Positions 2,110-13,089 of a DNA stretch of 35,943 nucleotides are shown piece by piece. The stretch is taken from the NCBI GenBank assembly GCA_027064585.1, contig JAMOPI010000025.1, positions 1 through 35,943 on the forward strand. Reading direction: 5' to 3'. This stretch comes from Candidatus Desulfofervidaceae bacterium (GTDB lineage: Bacteria > Desulfobacterota > Desulfofervidia > Desulfofervidales > Desulfofervidaceae). Position numbers and translations under genes: made by a program. The first letter of the stretch is position 1. Each line of letters begins with the position of its first letter. Below the pieces are notes generated by a model. The model was not told the DNA's origin. It saw nothing but the letters and a program-made list of their open reading frames with translations, and did no database searches.

Positions 2110-2278
2110 CCCAAGATCCACGATTGATTTATAGTATTCCGCAAAAATTTATGAATTTCCTTCCAACCTCAAATAAAAAGTCAGCGCCGAAGCGAACGAG
2201 GCCAAGGCAGTTCGTCAGCCACCCGCAGGGCTTGGCCTTGACCGCATGAGCTAACAAAGGCGCTATAATTATAATTGG
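2110..2278 (-). repeat. Structured non-coding repeat, short inverted copy of the 11468-11826 repeat
   Basis: These 169 bases align, in reverse complement, with 11468-11826 at high identity, except that the other copy has about 190 extra bases after the GGAAGGAAA motif. The core is GC-rich with nested inverted repeats: AGCGCC/GGCGCT outside, and GTCAAGGC pairing with a slightly mismatched partner inside. No credible coding sequence is present. Flanking terminal repeats like those at 11395/11838 are not clear here, so this copy looks older or truncated. It fills most of the 450-base gap between tRNA-Gln and rpsT. The rest (2279-2404) holds two small hairpins (2300-2318 and 2348-2363) and no gene that I can see. 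Confidence 0.8.
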
Positions 2279-2404
2279 ACTTGAGGGGAAAATGAATGTT
2301 TTTACCTTTTAGGTAAAAGGCGTTTTTTAAAAAAATCGCTTTATTACAGCTCACTTATGAGCTCTATTGGAGGGCAATCACGGATTGTGGGCATTCAGAA
2401 AATC

Positions 2405-5877: not shown

Positions 5878-6686
5878 TTACCAAGTTAATATTTCATCGT
5901 AGGTAATTTTTGTTTTCGCCACTCCTTCCTCTATTTTCTGTTTAATTTTTCCATAAACATCTATAAGATATTCCCTTTTAAACACTACAAAACCATTGGC
6001 ATATTTTATAAAATTTTCTTGGAATATGGTTAATACTTGCCGATATTTTTCTTTGTTTTCCGCTTTTACGCGTTTACTTTCAAGTTTTTTATTGATTTCT
6101 TCTAATTCTAACACAAGATAGGGAATTTCTACAGCTAAATCAGCATGTTTTTGTTGAGTTTTCGTAAACCTCCTGTCAGATGCCTCTCGGCGATAAGAAA
6201 TCTTTTTAATTTGAAGAGCAACTTTTTTCCTGAAATTTTTACAATAGCATCAATTCCCTTTTTATCCAACTCTGCGGATGAGTTTAACTTTTCTTCAAAA
6301 AGAGCATTCCAAAGGTATTGAAAATGAAATTGGGTAAGAATGGACATCCATATCCTATACAACCTTGCTTTAAAGCCTTCTTCTACAAACTGTAAAGAAC
6401 AACCGTAAAAATATTTTTTAATGAATTCATATACATAAGGGCTAAGTTTTTCCCGCCAGTATATTGCAAAGATTTCATCATAATCTTTAAAATCCATCGT
6501 GTCCCAATAATAGTGATAATACAGTTCTAAAGGAAGCAAGTCTTTTGGTAAATCCTGCTCTACGGTTTTGATCCTTCTAAGTTGAGAATACTTTGCTACA
6601 TTTATGTTCTTTAAAAAATTCTCGTATTTCTCCAAATCATTTTCCCAATTACGTATTATAGCCATTCTTTTTTTATTATCTCCCAT
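5878..6686 (-). CDS. TaqI-family type II restriction endonuclease, split by a -1 frameshift
   Basis: The gene would encode a nuclease cutting TCGA. Frame 1 runs 6686-6135 (183 residues) and shows family features: IKTVEQDLP (about 39-47), ARLYRIWMSILTQFHFQYL (about 107-125) and GID with the predicted catalytic Asp146. Codons 154-155 read AAA AAG within GGA AAA AAG, i.e. an A AAA AAG heptamer at 6228-6222. After it frame 1 turns to junk and stops. Slipping back one base gives VALQIKKISYRREASDRRF, which supplies the expected catalytic Lys, and continues open to the stop at 5878. The joined product is about 269 residues, close to R.TaqI (263). The start overlaps the methyltransferase end by 31 bases (ATG 6686) or 10 bases (ATG 6665). 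Programmed frameshifting, a phase-variable off state or a sequencing error are all possible. Confidence 0.85.
6222..6228 (-). promoter_or_regulatory. A AAA AAG slippery heptamer in the restriction gene
   Basis: On the minus strand the heptamer A AAA AAG sits in the exact zero-frame phase (GGA AAA AAG) used by bacterial -1 frameshift signals such as dnaX. The -1 frame has a TGA about eight codons upstream and the zero frame stops 27 codons downstream, so decoding could switch only in a short window containing this motif. I see no strong spaced Shine-Dalgarno stimulator upstream, and only weak hairpin potential downstream (GCC-GAGA-GGC). A stimulatory context is therefore unproven. Confidence 0.5.
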
Positions 6687-7966
6687 TCTTTTTTACTAGG
6701 CAAAGGCAAAAGTTTTAATTGGGTTATGCTTAAATGGTAAGTCACCTCCCGAAAAATATCTTTTATATATCTTTTTACCACATTCGTACTTAGATACTCT
6801 ACAACTTCTTCGTCATCTAGGTCGTAGTTTAGGGTAAGGATGCTGTTTTTCTTTAACAGATGATACACATCACCCATCCAGGGATAAAGCCTTGCATCAT
6901 AGGCAGCACCCACCCTCCCATCCTCTCTAAACCCTAAACCAACCACGATATGAGGTTTGGTAAAAAAGTTTCTTAAAGTTGTTATCTTTTCTTTCGCAAT
7001 CCAATAACCAGTAAGGGATTCATAAAGGATGTGGTTACATTTTAAGTTACTCCCGTTTAGAATAGGAAGATGACCAGATAATTTTTCTTTTTTTACATGT
7101 GGGTGATGTTTTATTTCTGGAGTTCTGGGAGATATTTTTATGTCATAGACATCTCCCAAACGATAACTACATAAATCATCTAGTTTTTTACTAAAAGTAG
7201 TAGAAAATAAAATAATCTCTCCCTGCCACCTATTTTCTTTTCTAATTTGAATGACTTTCCCTTCTTTGTATTCACTTAAAATGAATCTGTGAGACATGGC
7301 CTTCGTTTTTTTAAAATTTAACACTACCGTAGCCACATCTGCCTCTGGTTTAAAAACATCTGGACCTAAATATATAATCTGCGTTTTGCCGTGTCTGGCA
7401 AGAAAGCTCCTTAATTTTTTAAATTCATCAAGAAACATAAAGGTGGCAGGCACAATAAAAATCAGCTGTCCATTTTCTTTAAGTAAATTAATAGATTTTT
7501 CAATAAAGGCACCATAGAGATTATACTTTCCATACCAGGTAGTATAGATATTCCTATACTTTTGTTTAGTCGCATTGTCCACTTTGAGCGAATAATGGTC
7601 TGATAGACTTGGAATGCCATAAGGCGGATTGCCAATGATAAGGTCAAAACGCAGTTTTGTATCCCAGAGTAAATAATCGGCGTGAACTAAGTCTATATGA
7701 GAGGTAAGATATTCTATGTGCCGGATAATCTCCTTGTTTATTTCTACGCCAACCTTTTTGGCTTTTTTAAAGAGAAAAGGATTTTTTCTTTTTATTCCTA
7801 TTAAAAACTGTGCGCCACCACAGGCAGGCTCTAAAATAGAAATTTCATTTTTTTTAAGTAAACCTCCTGCAATCAGCTCTACCATAAAATCTACTACCCA
7901 GTCAGGTGTGAAGAAAATACCGTAATCTTTCTTTTTTGTCTGAGCAATTGCAGGAAGTGGTTTCAT
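6656..7966 (-). CDS. TaqI-like N6-adenine DNA methyltransferase (predicted TCGA-specific)
   Basis: This 436-residue gamma-class amino-methyltransferase should methylate adenine in TCGA and protect the host from the adjacent nuclease. Motif X is near FFTPDWVVDFMV (about 18-30), motif I (AdoMet) is ILEPACGGAQFL (about 44-55), and motif IV (catalytic) is LIIGNPPYGI (about 109-118). Downstream segments KYNLYGAFIEK and FLARHGKTQIIYLG closely resemble M.TaqI as I remember it, and the C terminus holds the target-recognition region. Length matches M.TaqI (421). The frame is intact, unlike that of the nuclease. An AGGAAA ribosome-binding site precedes the ATG. It starts 31 bases after the pRiA4b-like gene and overlaps the nuclease start. 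Both are probably expressed by read-through from the riboflavin operon. Confidence 0.9.
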   Translation of the reverse strand: MKPLPAIAQTKKKDYGIFFTPDWVVDFMVELIAGGLLKKNEISILEPACGGAQFLIGIKRKNPFLFKKAKKVGVEINKEIIRHIEYLTSHIDLVHADYLLWDTKLRFDLIIGNPPYGIPSLSDHYSLKVDNATKQKYRNIYTTWYGKYNLYGAFIEKSINLLKENGQLIFIVPATFMFLDEFKKLRSFLARHGKTQIIYLGPDVFKPEADVATVVLNFKKTKAMSHRFILSEYKEGKVIQIRKENRWQGEIILFSTTFSKKLDDLCSYRLGDVYDIKISPRTPEIKHHPHVKKEKLSGHLPILNGSNLKCNHILYESLTGYWIAKEKITTLRNFFTKPHIVVGLGFREDGRVGAAYDARLYPWMGDVYHLLKKNSILTLNYDLDDEEVVEYLSTNVVKRYIKDIFREVTYHLSITQLKLLPLPSKKEWEIIKKEWL

Positions 7967-11346: not shown

Positions 11347-11375
11347 ATAATAATTTGGATTAATAGGAAATGCAA
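11347..11375 (-). promoter_or_regulatory. Putative promoter of the ribBA operon
   Basis: On the minus strand TTGCAT (11375-11370) lies 17 bases before TATTAT (11352-11347), placing the start about 25 bases ahead of ribBA. The mobile element at 11395-11853 inserted about 20 bases further upstream, so the core promoter survives but any upstream control region has been displaced. Confidence 0.5.
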
Positions 11376-11394
11376 GGGGCATAGTAAAAGGACC

Positions 11395-11853
11395 TGAGGC
11401 TGTTTGAAAAATATAGTTAACCGCATAATTCTATGTAATTTGTGGAGACCTTTTTCCCTTCCAAGGCCCAATCATAATTATAGCGCCTTTGTTAGCTCAT
11501 GCGGTCAAGGCCAAGCCCTGCGGGTGGCTGACGAACTGCCTTGACCTCGCTCGCTTCGGCGCTGACTTTTTATTTGAGGTTGGAAGGAAAAAGGAAATTT
11601 TCTTTTTCCCCTTCCTCCTTTCACAACTTCTTTTTGGCCAAGGCCGAGTGTGGTCAAGGGCAAGCCCGAAGGGCGCAGCCTGCGCAAGGGCGCAGGTCGG
11701 AGCGAGCGAAGCGAGCGTAGACCCTTGACCACTTAACGAGGCCTTGGCGTATAATTTTTGTAAGTAAGGAGGAAAGGAAATTCATCAATTTTTGCGGAAT
11801 ACTATAAATCAATCGCGGATTTTGGGTCAATGTTCAATTTTCAAACAGCCTCA
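11395..11853. mobile_element. 459-bp non-autonomous transposable element (MITE-like) with nested insert
   Basis: Perfect 16-bp terminal inverted repeats (TGAGGCTGTTTGAAAA at 11395-11410 and its complement at 11838-11853) are bracketed by the 7-bp duplication AAGGACC. Inside is the structured core shared with 2110-2278 (here 11468-11826), which itself holds about 190 bases of another hairpin element. There is no transposase and no credible gene; two ORFs of 75-79 codons overlap antiparallel across the palindromes and look spurious. A related full-length element elsewhere in the genome would have to supply transposase. I cannot name the family from the ends alone. It accounts for the gene-free stretch between ribBA and the metal transporter. 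Confidence 0.85.
11590..11780. repeat. Nested GC-rich multi-hairpin insert
   Basis: About 190 bases absent from the 2110-2278 copy, bounded by similar GGAAGGAAA / GGAAAGGAAA motifs. Outer arms CCAAGGCC (11638-11645)/GGCCTTGG (11740-11747) and GTGGTCAAGGG (11650-11660)/CCCTTGACCAC (11722-11732) pair perfectly. Inside are hairpins GCCC-GAA-GGGC (11664-11674) and CCTGCGC-AAGG-GCGCAGG (11679-11696), giving a branched fold. It shares GTCAAGG and CGAAGCGAGCG sub-motifs with the host core, so the two are related families. Confidence 0.75.
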
Positions 11854-11860
11854 AAGGACC

Positions 11861-11888
11861 TTGTTAATCGTTATGTGTGTGGTAAAAT
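11861..11888 (+). promoter_or_regulatory. Putative promoter of the CDF transporter, possibly leaderless
   Basis: TTGTTA (11861-11866) is followed after 16 bases by TAAAAT (11883-11888). Transcription would begin near 11895, at the ATG at 11896, where no Shine-Dalgarno is seen. It starts immediately after the mobile element's target duplication. Confidence 0.45.
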
Positions 11889-11895
11889 CTTTTTT

Positions 11896-13089
11896 ATGGA
11901 AACCAGCGAAAAGATTGCCCTTTATGCGGTTGTTTTTAATCTAGGCCTGGTGGCCTTTAAAACACTTCTTTCCTGGTACTCAGGCAGTCTGGCCTTAACG
12001 GCCGAAGTGATTCACTCTTTAACCGATGTTATTACCTCTGCTGCCATTTTAGTAGGTATTAAATTGTCTAAACGGCGTTCTGCTTCCTTCCCTTATGGTC
12101 TTTATAAAATAGAAAATCTTGTCTCCCTGATCGTGTCTTTATTAATCGTAGGGGCTGGAATTGAGGTTGTAAAAACGGCCTTCGGCGAATCAAGGGGTCT
12201 ACATGTCTCACGCTTACCTTTGACGGCAGCCGGGGTTGGGTTAGCCATGATGGGAGCTTATCTTTTCTCCTGTTATGAACACAAAAAGGGTAAGGAGCTT
12301 AACTCGCCTAGCCTTATCAGCGATGCTCAGCATCTCCGCTCAGATGTCCTTTCGGCCATAGCCATTATGGCCGGACTTATGGGAGAATATTTGGGTCTAC
12401 GTTTGGACAAGGCCGTCGCCATTGTTGTAGCCATCTTCATCATCAGGGCCGGAGCACAGATTTTCATTGATAGTATAAGGGTACTTTTAGATGCCTCGGT
12501 AGACTTTGCCACCTTGGATAAGGTAAAAAACATTGTCCTTTCTCATCCCGCGGTAGAGGAAATTAAGGCTATTTGGGGACGTAATTCAGGGCGATATAAG
12601 TTTATTGAGCTTATCATTACTTTAAAGGTCAACAGTCTAAAAAAGGCTCATATCGTTTCTCATGAGATTGAACAGCGCATAAAGGCAGAAATCCCTCATG
12701 TAGATCATATCCTTATCCAGTATGAACCTAGAGAAAAAGATTTTTTAGTTTATGCGGTTCCTCTTGCCGAGGACAAACATACCCTTTCCGATCACTTTGG
12801 TGACGCCCCTTATTTTTACTTTTGTAAAGTAGGGCTAAAGGATAAGAAGATCCACACAGAAAAAATAGAAATAAATCCTTATACTTTATTGGAAAGAGGA
12901 AGAGGAATAGAAGTAAGTAAATGGCTTTTAAATAAAGGAATAGATATTGTTCTAACCCGTAAAGAGCTAACGGGGAAAGGTCCATTTTTTGTCTTGTCAG
13001 AGGCAGGAGTAGAAATTAAAACAACTCAATGTCGTAACTTAGATGAAGTAAAACAAATGATATTTCAGAAAAAAGAGGAAAATAATTAG
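11896..13089 (+). CDS. Cation diffusion facilitator with C-terminal NifX/NifB-like domain
   Basis: This 397-residue inner-membrane protein probably exports Fe2+, Zn2+ or Mn2+ in exchange for protons. The first 200 residues hold the CDF transmembrane domain, with metal-site motifs HSLTD (His40, Asp44) and DAQHLRSD in later helices. A cytoplasmic CDF C-terminal domain follows (about 205-290). Unusually, residues about 300-395 match the dinitrogenase iron-molybdenum cofactor binding fold (VYAVPLAEDKHTLSDHFGDAPYF, then the GIDIVLTRK region), which may sense or bind a metal cluster. The ATG at 11896 is preferred to the frame start at 11830, because the extra 22 residues would be encoded by the mobile element's right end. 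glnD follows after 27 bases. Confidence 0.88.
   Translation: METSEKIALYAVVFNLGLVAFKTLLSWYSGSLALTAEVIHSLTDVITSAAILVGIKLSKRRSASFPYGLYKIENLVSLIVSLLIVGAGIEVVKTAFGESRGLHVSRLPLTAAGVGLAMMGAYLFSCYEHKKGKELNSPSLISDAQHLRSDVLSAIAIMAGLMGEYLGLRLDKAVAIVVAIFIIRAGAQIFIDSIRVLLDASVDFATLDKVKNIVLSHPAVEEIKAIWGRNSGRYKFIELIITLKVNSLKKAHIVSHEIEQRIKAEIPHVDHILIQYEPREKDFLVYAVPLAEDKHTLSDHFGDAPYFYFCKVGLKDKKIHTEKIEINPYTLLERGRGIEVSKWLLNKGIDIVLTRKELTGKGPFFVLSEAGVEIKTTQCRNLDEVKQMIFQKKEENN

Follow-up and report, generated by a model that had tools for sequence, protein, structure and literature searches.

What kind of element separates the gene for a RibBA fusion (vitamin B2) from that for a cation-efflux transporter in Candidatus Desulfofervidaceae bacterium, what moved it, and what did its arrival do to the promoters on either side? 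The window analyzed is the whole of contig C25 (35,943 nucleotides), part of a 1.92-Mb draft genome in 38 contigs that is rated 100% complete. As the original prediction held, it contains an intact MITE-like element: 459 bp between repeats of AAGGACC, bounded by perfect 16-bp TIRs of type B, TGAGGCTGTTTGAAAA. By a rough estimate, 16 + 7 bp arranged in this way within 500 bp would arise by chance somewhere in the window with a probability of 3e-7, and no further TGAGGCTGTTTGAAAA site with up to 3 mismatches occurs elsewhere in the window. The features are:

11347-11375, − strand: ribBA promoter-like boxes TTGCAT, 17 bases, TATTAT (by eye; conserved in relatives ahead of their ribBA genes; intact)
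11388-11394: left target duplication AAGGACC (from the sequence; 8 bp, AAAGGACC, from 11387 with one end base shared)
11395-11410, + strand: left TIR, type B, TGAGGCTGTTTGAAAA (exact repeat; TIR sites of the same genome)
11412-11426, + strand: inner C-type terminus TATAGTTAACCGCAT, the start point of bare copies (comparison with bare copies)
11449-11596: first long core hairpin (folds; conserved in 29 copies)
11606-11780: second long core hairpin (folds; conserved in 29 copies)
11794-11809, + strand: inner C-type right terminus GCGGAATACTATAAAT (comparison with bare copies)
11806-11826, − strand: embedded IS1380-type (A) end CCCAAAATCCGCGATTGAT (match to IS1380 element ends)
11838-11853, − strand: right TIR, type B (exact inverted match to the left TIR)
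11854-11860: right target duplication AAGGACC (from the sequence)
11861-11888, + strand: transporter promoter-like boxes TTGTTA, 16 bases, TAAAAT (consensus scan; intact)

The predicted 7-bp duplication is present as the AAGGACC repeat, but its length is less certain. If the final A of the right TIR is taken as part of the repeat, the duplication becomes 8 bp (AAAGGACC, 11387-11394 / 11853-11860), and this may be the true value, since sister copies have 8-bp duplications. The interior proved non-coding and highly structured, as proposed. It holds no open reading frame of at least 80 aa except the transporter frame, extended mechanically upstream to 11830, a start that is probably an artefact because the ATG at 11896 sits 8 bases past the -10-like box. 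Folding is far more stable than that of shuffled sequences (z of -7.5 as DNA; as RNA, -5.9 for one strand and -9.1 for the other), and the predicted DNA and RNA folds consist of two long hairpins with a TIR stem closing both.

The location between divergent promoters was also borne out. Nineteen bases separate the ribBA -35-like hexamer TTGCAT (11375-11370, − strand) from the start of the left TIR; the ribBA hexamers were identified by eye and are absent from the listing of the consensus promoter scan. At the other end, the right duplication directly abuts the transporter -35-like TTGTTA (11861-11866), which is followed by TAAAAT at 11883-11888. Both promoter-like sites were left intact by the insertion, and the element may affect expression of its neighbors. 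The transporter (11896-13089) carries a C-terminal Nitro_FeMo-Co (NifX/NifB-like) domain; elsewhere in the window (6135-7966, − strand), a TaqI-like restriction endonuclease adjoins an Eco57I/TaqI-type DNA methylase, forming a restriction-modification pair.

In the congener G001 the same gene pair stands without the element, the genes facing each other across 39 bp as compared with 514 in the window. Flanks and promoter-like boxes are recognizable at this junction, and the target 7-mer has diverged. The search for an empty AAGGACC site in relatives therefore succeeded in part: the G001 junction is homologous and element-free, but it is not a perfect pre-insertion site, because the exact AAGGACC is not conserved there.

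Copies elsewhere in the genome were inventoried from the matches listed and from fetched stretches. Fifty-six stretches similar to the element appear among the matches listed, and the best of these, C31:48960-49418, is 94% identical over the full length. The genome-wide search for the 16-bp TIR, proposed as a check, returned 40 sites with ≤2 mismatches, as against 2 for the reversed control, and 26 with ≤1 mismatch. About nine copies, of 189-460 bp, have two B ends; three of them (L045, L037 and L032) are flanked by perfect 8-bp duplications (CAAGGGGT, GGGCTGGG and GAAAATTT), and in several B copies a duplication is not clearly visible. An IS5-family element has inserted into another B element, and from the outer flanks GTAATTCCC / GTAATCCCC we infer that the B pieces on contigs C24 and C6 are the two halves of one element. 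When 395 genomes of the phylum were scanned, each of the other 394 had 0-3 B TIR sites with ≤1 mismatch, G001 having one exact solo B end. The B family is thus lineage-specific and virtually private to this genome. Nothing resembling the window element was found in plasmids, phages or viral contigs, and a literature search for the string TGAGGCTGTTTGAAAA gave no relevant match, only an unrelated human-genetics paper. The prediction was to be abandoned if there were neither further copies nor an empty site; there are many copies, together with the element-free G001 junction.

Bacterial MITEs are defined here as TIR-bounded sequences of about 50-600 bp that lack a transposase gene, generate a target duplication and occur in several genomic copies. 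The window element has the size, the TIRs, the duplication and the copy number, contains no gene, and is missing from the G001 gene pair with its diverged target 7-mer. It is a true non-autonomous transposon of MITE-like type, a kind already known. Like MITEAba12 (PMC6382973), it is short, non-coding, TIR-bounded, multi-copy and intergenic, with target duplications; MITEAba12 moved in trans, and we propose that the window element did likewise. It differs from bacterial MITEs such as MITEAba12 in that no parent with the same TIRs was found, and in that its body is a mosaic with another family's ends.

The mosaic is apparent from the order of the termini. On the left, a C-type terminus lies directly inside the B TIR; on the right, the C-type terminus is followed by the IS1380 end, 11 bp, and the B TIR. 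This embedded A end, which lies 27 bp inward from the element's right end and has no counterpart on the left, matches the ends of elements with a decayed IS1380 transposase over 19-21 bp at 95-100%. Because a C terminus, an IS1380 end and B TIRs sit in one element, it is a mosaic to which at least two transposon families have contributed. The type A end (CCCAAAATCCGYGATTG) is much commoner in this genome, with 131 sites (control, 0), and there are 67 A sites in G002, the complete 2.54-Mb genome of another member of the family, and 48 in G004. Decayed IS1380-family transposases lie between A ends in G002 (L233, 1169 bp) and in the genome studied (C9:24269-25272). They match PF13701 with E values of 6.7e-22 and 9.5e-23, respectively, and the NCBIfam IS1380 model with 4e-41 and 9e-39, both under the whole-protein cut-off because the genes are truncated. 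A-type MITEs of 137-496 bp have ends similar to those of the transposase-bearing A elements, and some copies show 4-5 bp duplications; two IS1380 elements have duplications of 4 and 5 bp (PMC4133298). On these sequence grounds (decayed transposases, 4-5 bp duplications and similarity of ends), the A ends belong to IS1380. A-type ends were also seen near ribBA in two other genera, at about 1501-1517 of L224 (G003:C1:159790) and, in degenerate form, in L095 (G002). Their distance upstream from the ribBA -35-like box ranges from a few bases to about 25, which means that this promoter flank has been struck more than once.

The embedded A end and the IS1380 remnants in the genome would fit a history in which the IS1380 transposase moved the element through A ends, the B TIRs being mere neighboring repeats. 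We regard this as extremely improbable: no A end is present on the left, the duplication falls exactly outside the B TIRs, which contradicts use of A ends, and other B copies show 8-bp duplications outside B, unlike the 4-5 bp of A copies. Nor is the element an IS1380-derived MITE, as its termini are of type B, its duplication is 7-8 bp and its A end is single and internal. The IS1380-derived A-type MITEs of this genome and its relatives do share with it the two-hairpin core, as well as one end sequence of 19-21 bp; they differ in their CCCAAAATCCGYGATTG ends and 4-5 bp duplications, as opposed to B ends and 7-8 bp. TIMEs of Pseudomonas are likewise non-autonomous mosaics, arising by exchange or capture between transposons, but unlike the window element they have Tn3-type ends of about 38 bp and 5-6 bp duplications (PMC4133298). 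A second MITE in the window (2110-2391) combines A-type (IS1380) ends, which carry 3 and 1 mismatches, with a core that is shortened and holds the first hairpin.

The two-hairpin core spans ~290 bp and has at least 28 further copies, many of them under IS1380 A ends; one core is found under A, B and bare (C) ends. Bare C-type copies (TATAGTTAACCGCAT ... GCGGAATACTATAAAT) are present in the same genome and, as L192 of G004, in another genus; one of the bare copies, L014, has a 9-bp flanking repeat, GATGTTTTT. C-type copies could be B copies with eroded ends. It is also imaginable, if rather unlikely, that the core is a mobile module that switches ends repeatedly (IS1380, B, and bare C with a possible 9-bp duplication), exploiting several unrelated transposases.

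Whether the core itself is maintained by selection was considered with an alignment of 29 copies from two genera, in which 97% of the consensus pairs form; with partners slid by 1-3 columns, only 34-52% do so. This conservation, the fold far stronger than that of shuffled sequences, and the position between promoters might suggest a regulatory or RNA element to which transposon ends are incidental. Pairs with changes on both sides, however, number 5 and are not in surplus over shuffles (mean 6.2); changes are few and mostly subfamily switches, Rfam gives no match for the element, and its region holds no terminator-like site. The pairing data, as sequence comparison, neither support nor exclude a function of the hairpins, and a selected core with incidental ends appears very improbable to us.

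The expected transposase-bearing parent did not emerge. Neither this genome nor five relatives nor the rest of the phylum sample yielded a transposase-bearing element with B ends, and there were no inverted TIR pairs 0.7-2.5 kb apart among the sites listed for this genome. Some described MITEs also have no known parent, so the MITE class is retained; mobilization would then be in trans. Several candidates were eliminated. The IS5-family element at contig ends (C24:1-326 and the end of C15) turned out to be inserted into B elements; its ends are GTCRTCCCTGAAAAAC and not the B TIR, which speaks against an IS5-derived MITE, although other IS5 groups may differ, and it accounts for all DDE_Tnp_1 matches in the genome. 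For IS256 (C29, C8), the TIR-like stretch is a chance match within the transposase gene, and the flanks do not match, those at C29 containing nothing nearer than 6 mismatches to the TIR, which for the intact C29 copy counts against an IS256-derived MITE. No PF12762 match over the cut-off was found in this genome or five relatives, which removes an IS1595-derived MITE, and IS1380 is not the source of the B ends, as its own ends differ (type A). Duplications of 8 bp occur in several insertion-sequence families, and the B transposase may belong to one of several classes. ISL3 is a family with an 8-bp duplication in a published table (PMC4133298).

Other features of these insertion sequences were recorded. 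An intact IS256-family transposase with a 412-codon frame is present at L337 1289-2524 (G000:C29), with a fragment near the contig end at C8. The multi-copy IS5-family element, whose GTCRTCCCTGAAAAAC ends nearly always follow TA, breaks the assembly (L267, L279, L291, L294 and L297). Five of 14 IS5-family ends, fetched regardless of MITEs, lie inside MITE copies, although such copies are estimated to cover only ~2% of the genome (p of about 5e-6 by a binomial test).

The missing parent bears on whether the family is still mobile. A dead family, moved once by a transposase since lost, is a serious possibility, falling just short of an even chance. No B-ended parent appears in a draft rated 100% complete, and IS1380 is present merely as remnants; against this, the still perfect TIRs, and duplications that are perfect at four copies, point to movement in the fairly recent past. 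Absence of the parent is, moreover, unproven, as many of the 38 draft contigs break at repeats and a multi-copy parent could have gone unassembled.

Taken together, we consider it highly probable that the element is a MITE of about 459 bp, mosaic in structure, that was moved in trans and landed between divergent promoters. A transposase supplied in trans would act on the 16-bp B ends of the gene-free element, and transposition would duplicate 8 bp of target (7 or 8 bp here). The two-hairpin core, in circulation between IS1380-derived ends as well, would have been wrapped in a second, unrelated pair of ends (type B), leaving a fossil IS1380 end 27 bp inside the right end; such an exchange probably occurred by nested insertion or by recombination between copies. 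Insertion would then have taken place between two divergent promoters, damaging neither.

The locus shows a miniature transposon that has settled between two divergent promoters and broken neither. The lineage-specific B ends could serve as strain markers. The case illustrates clearly how miniature transposons within a 1.9-Mb genome exchange ends, and the duplications reveal the ends that were used.
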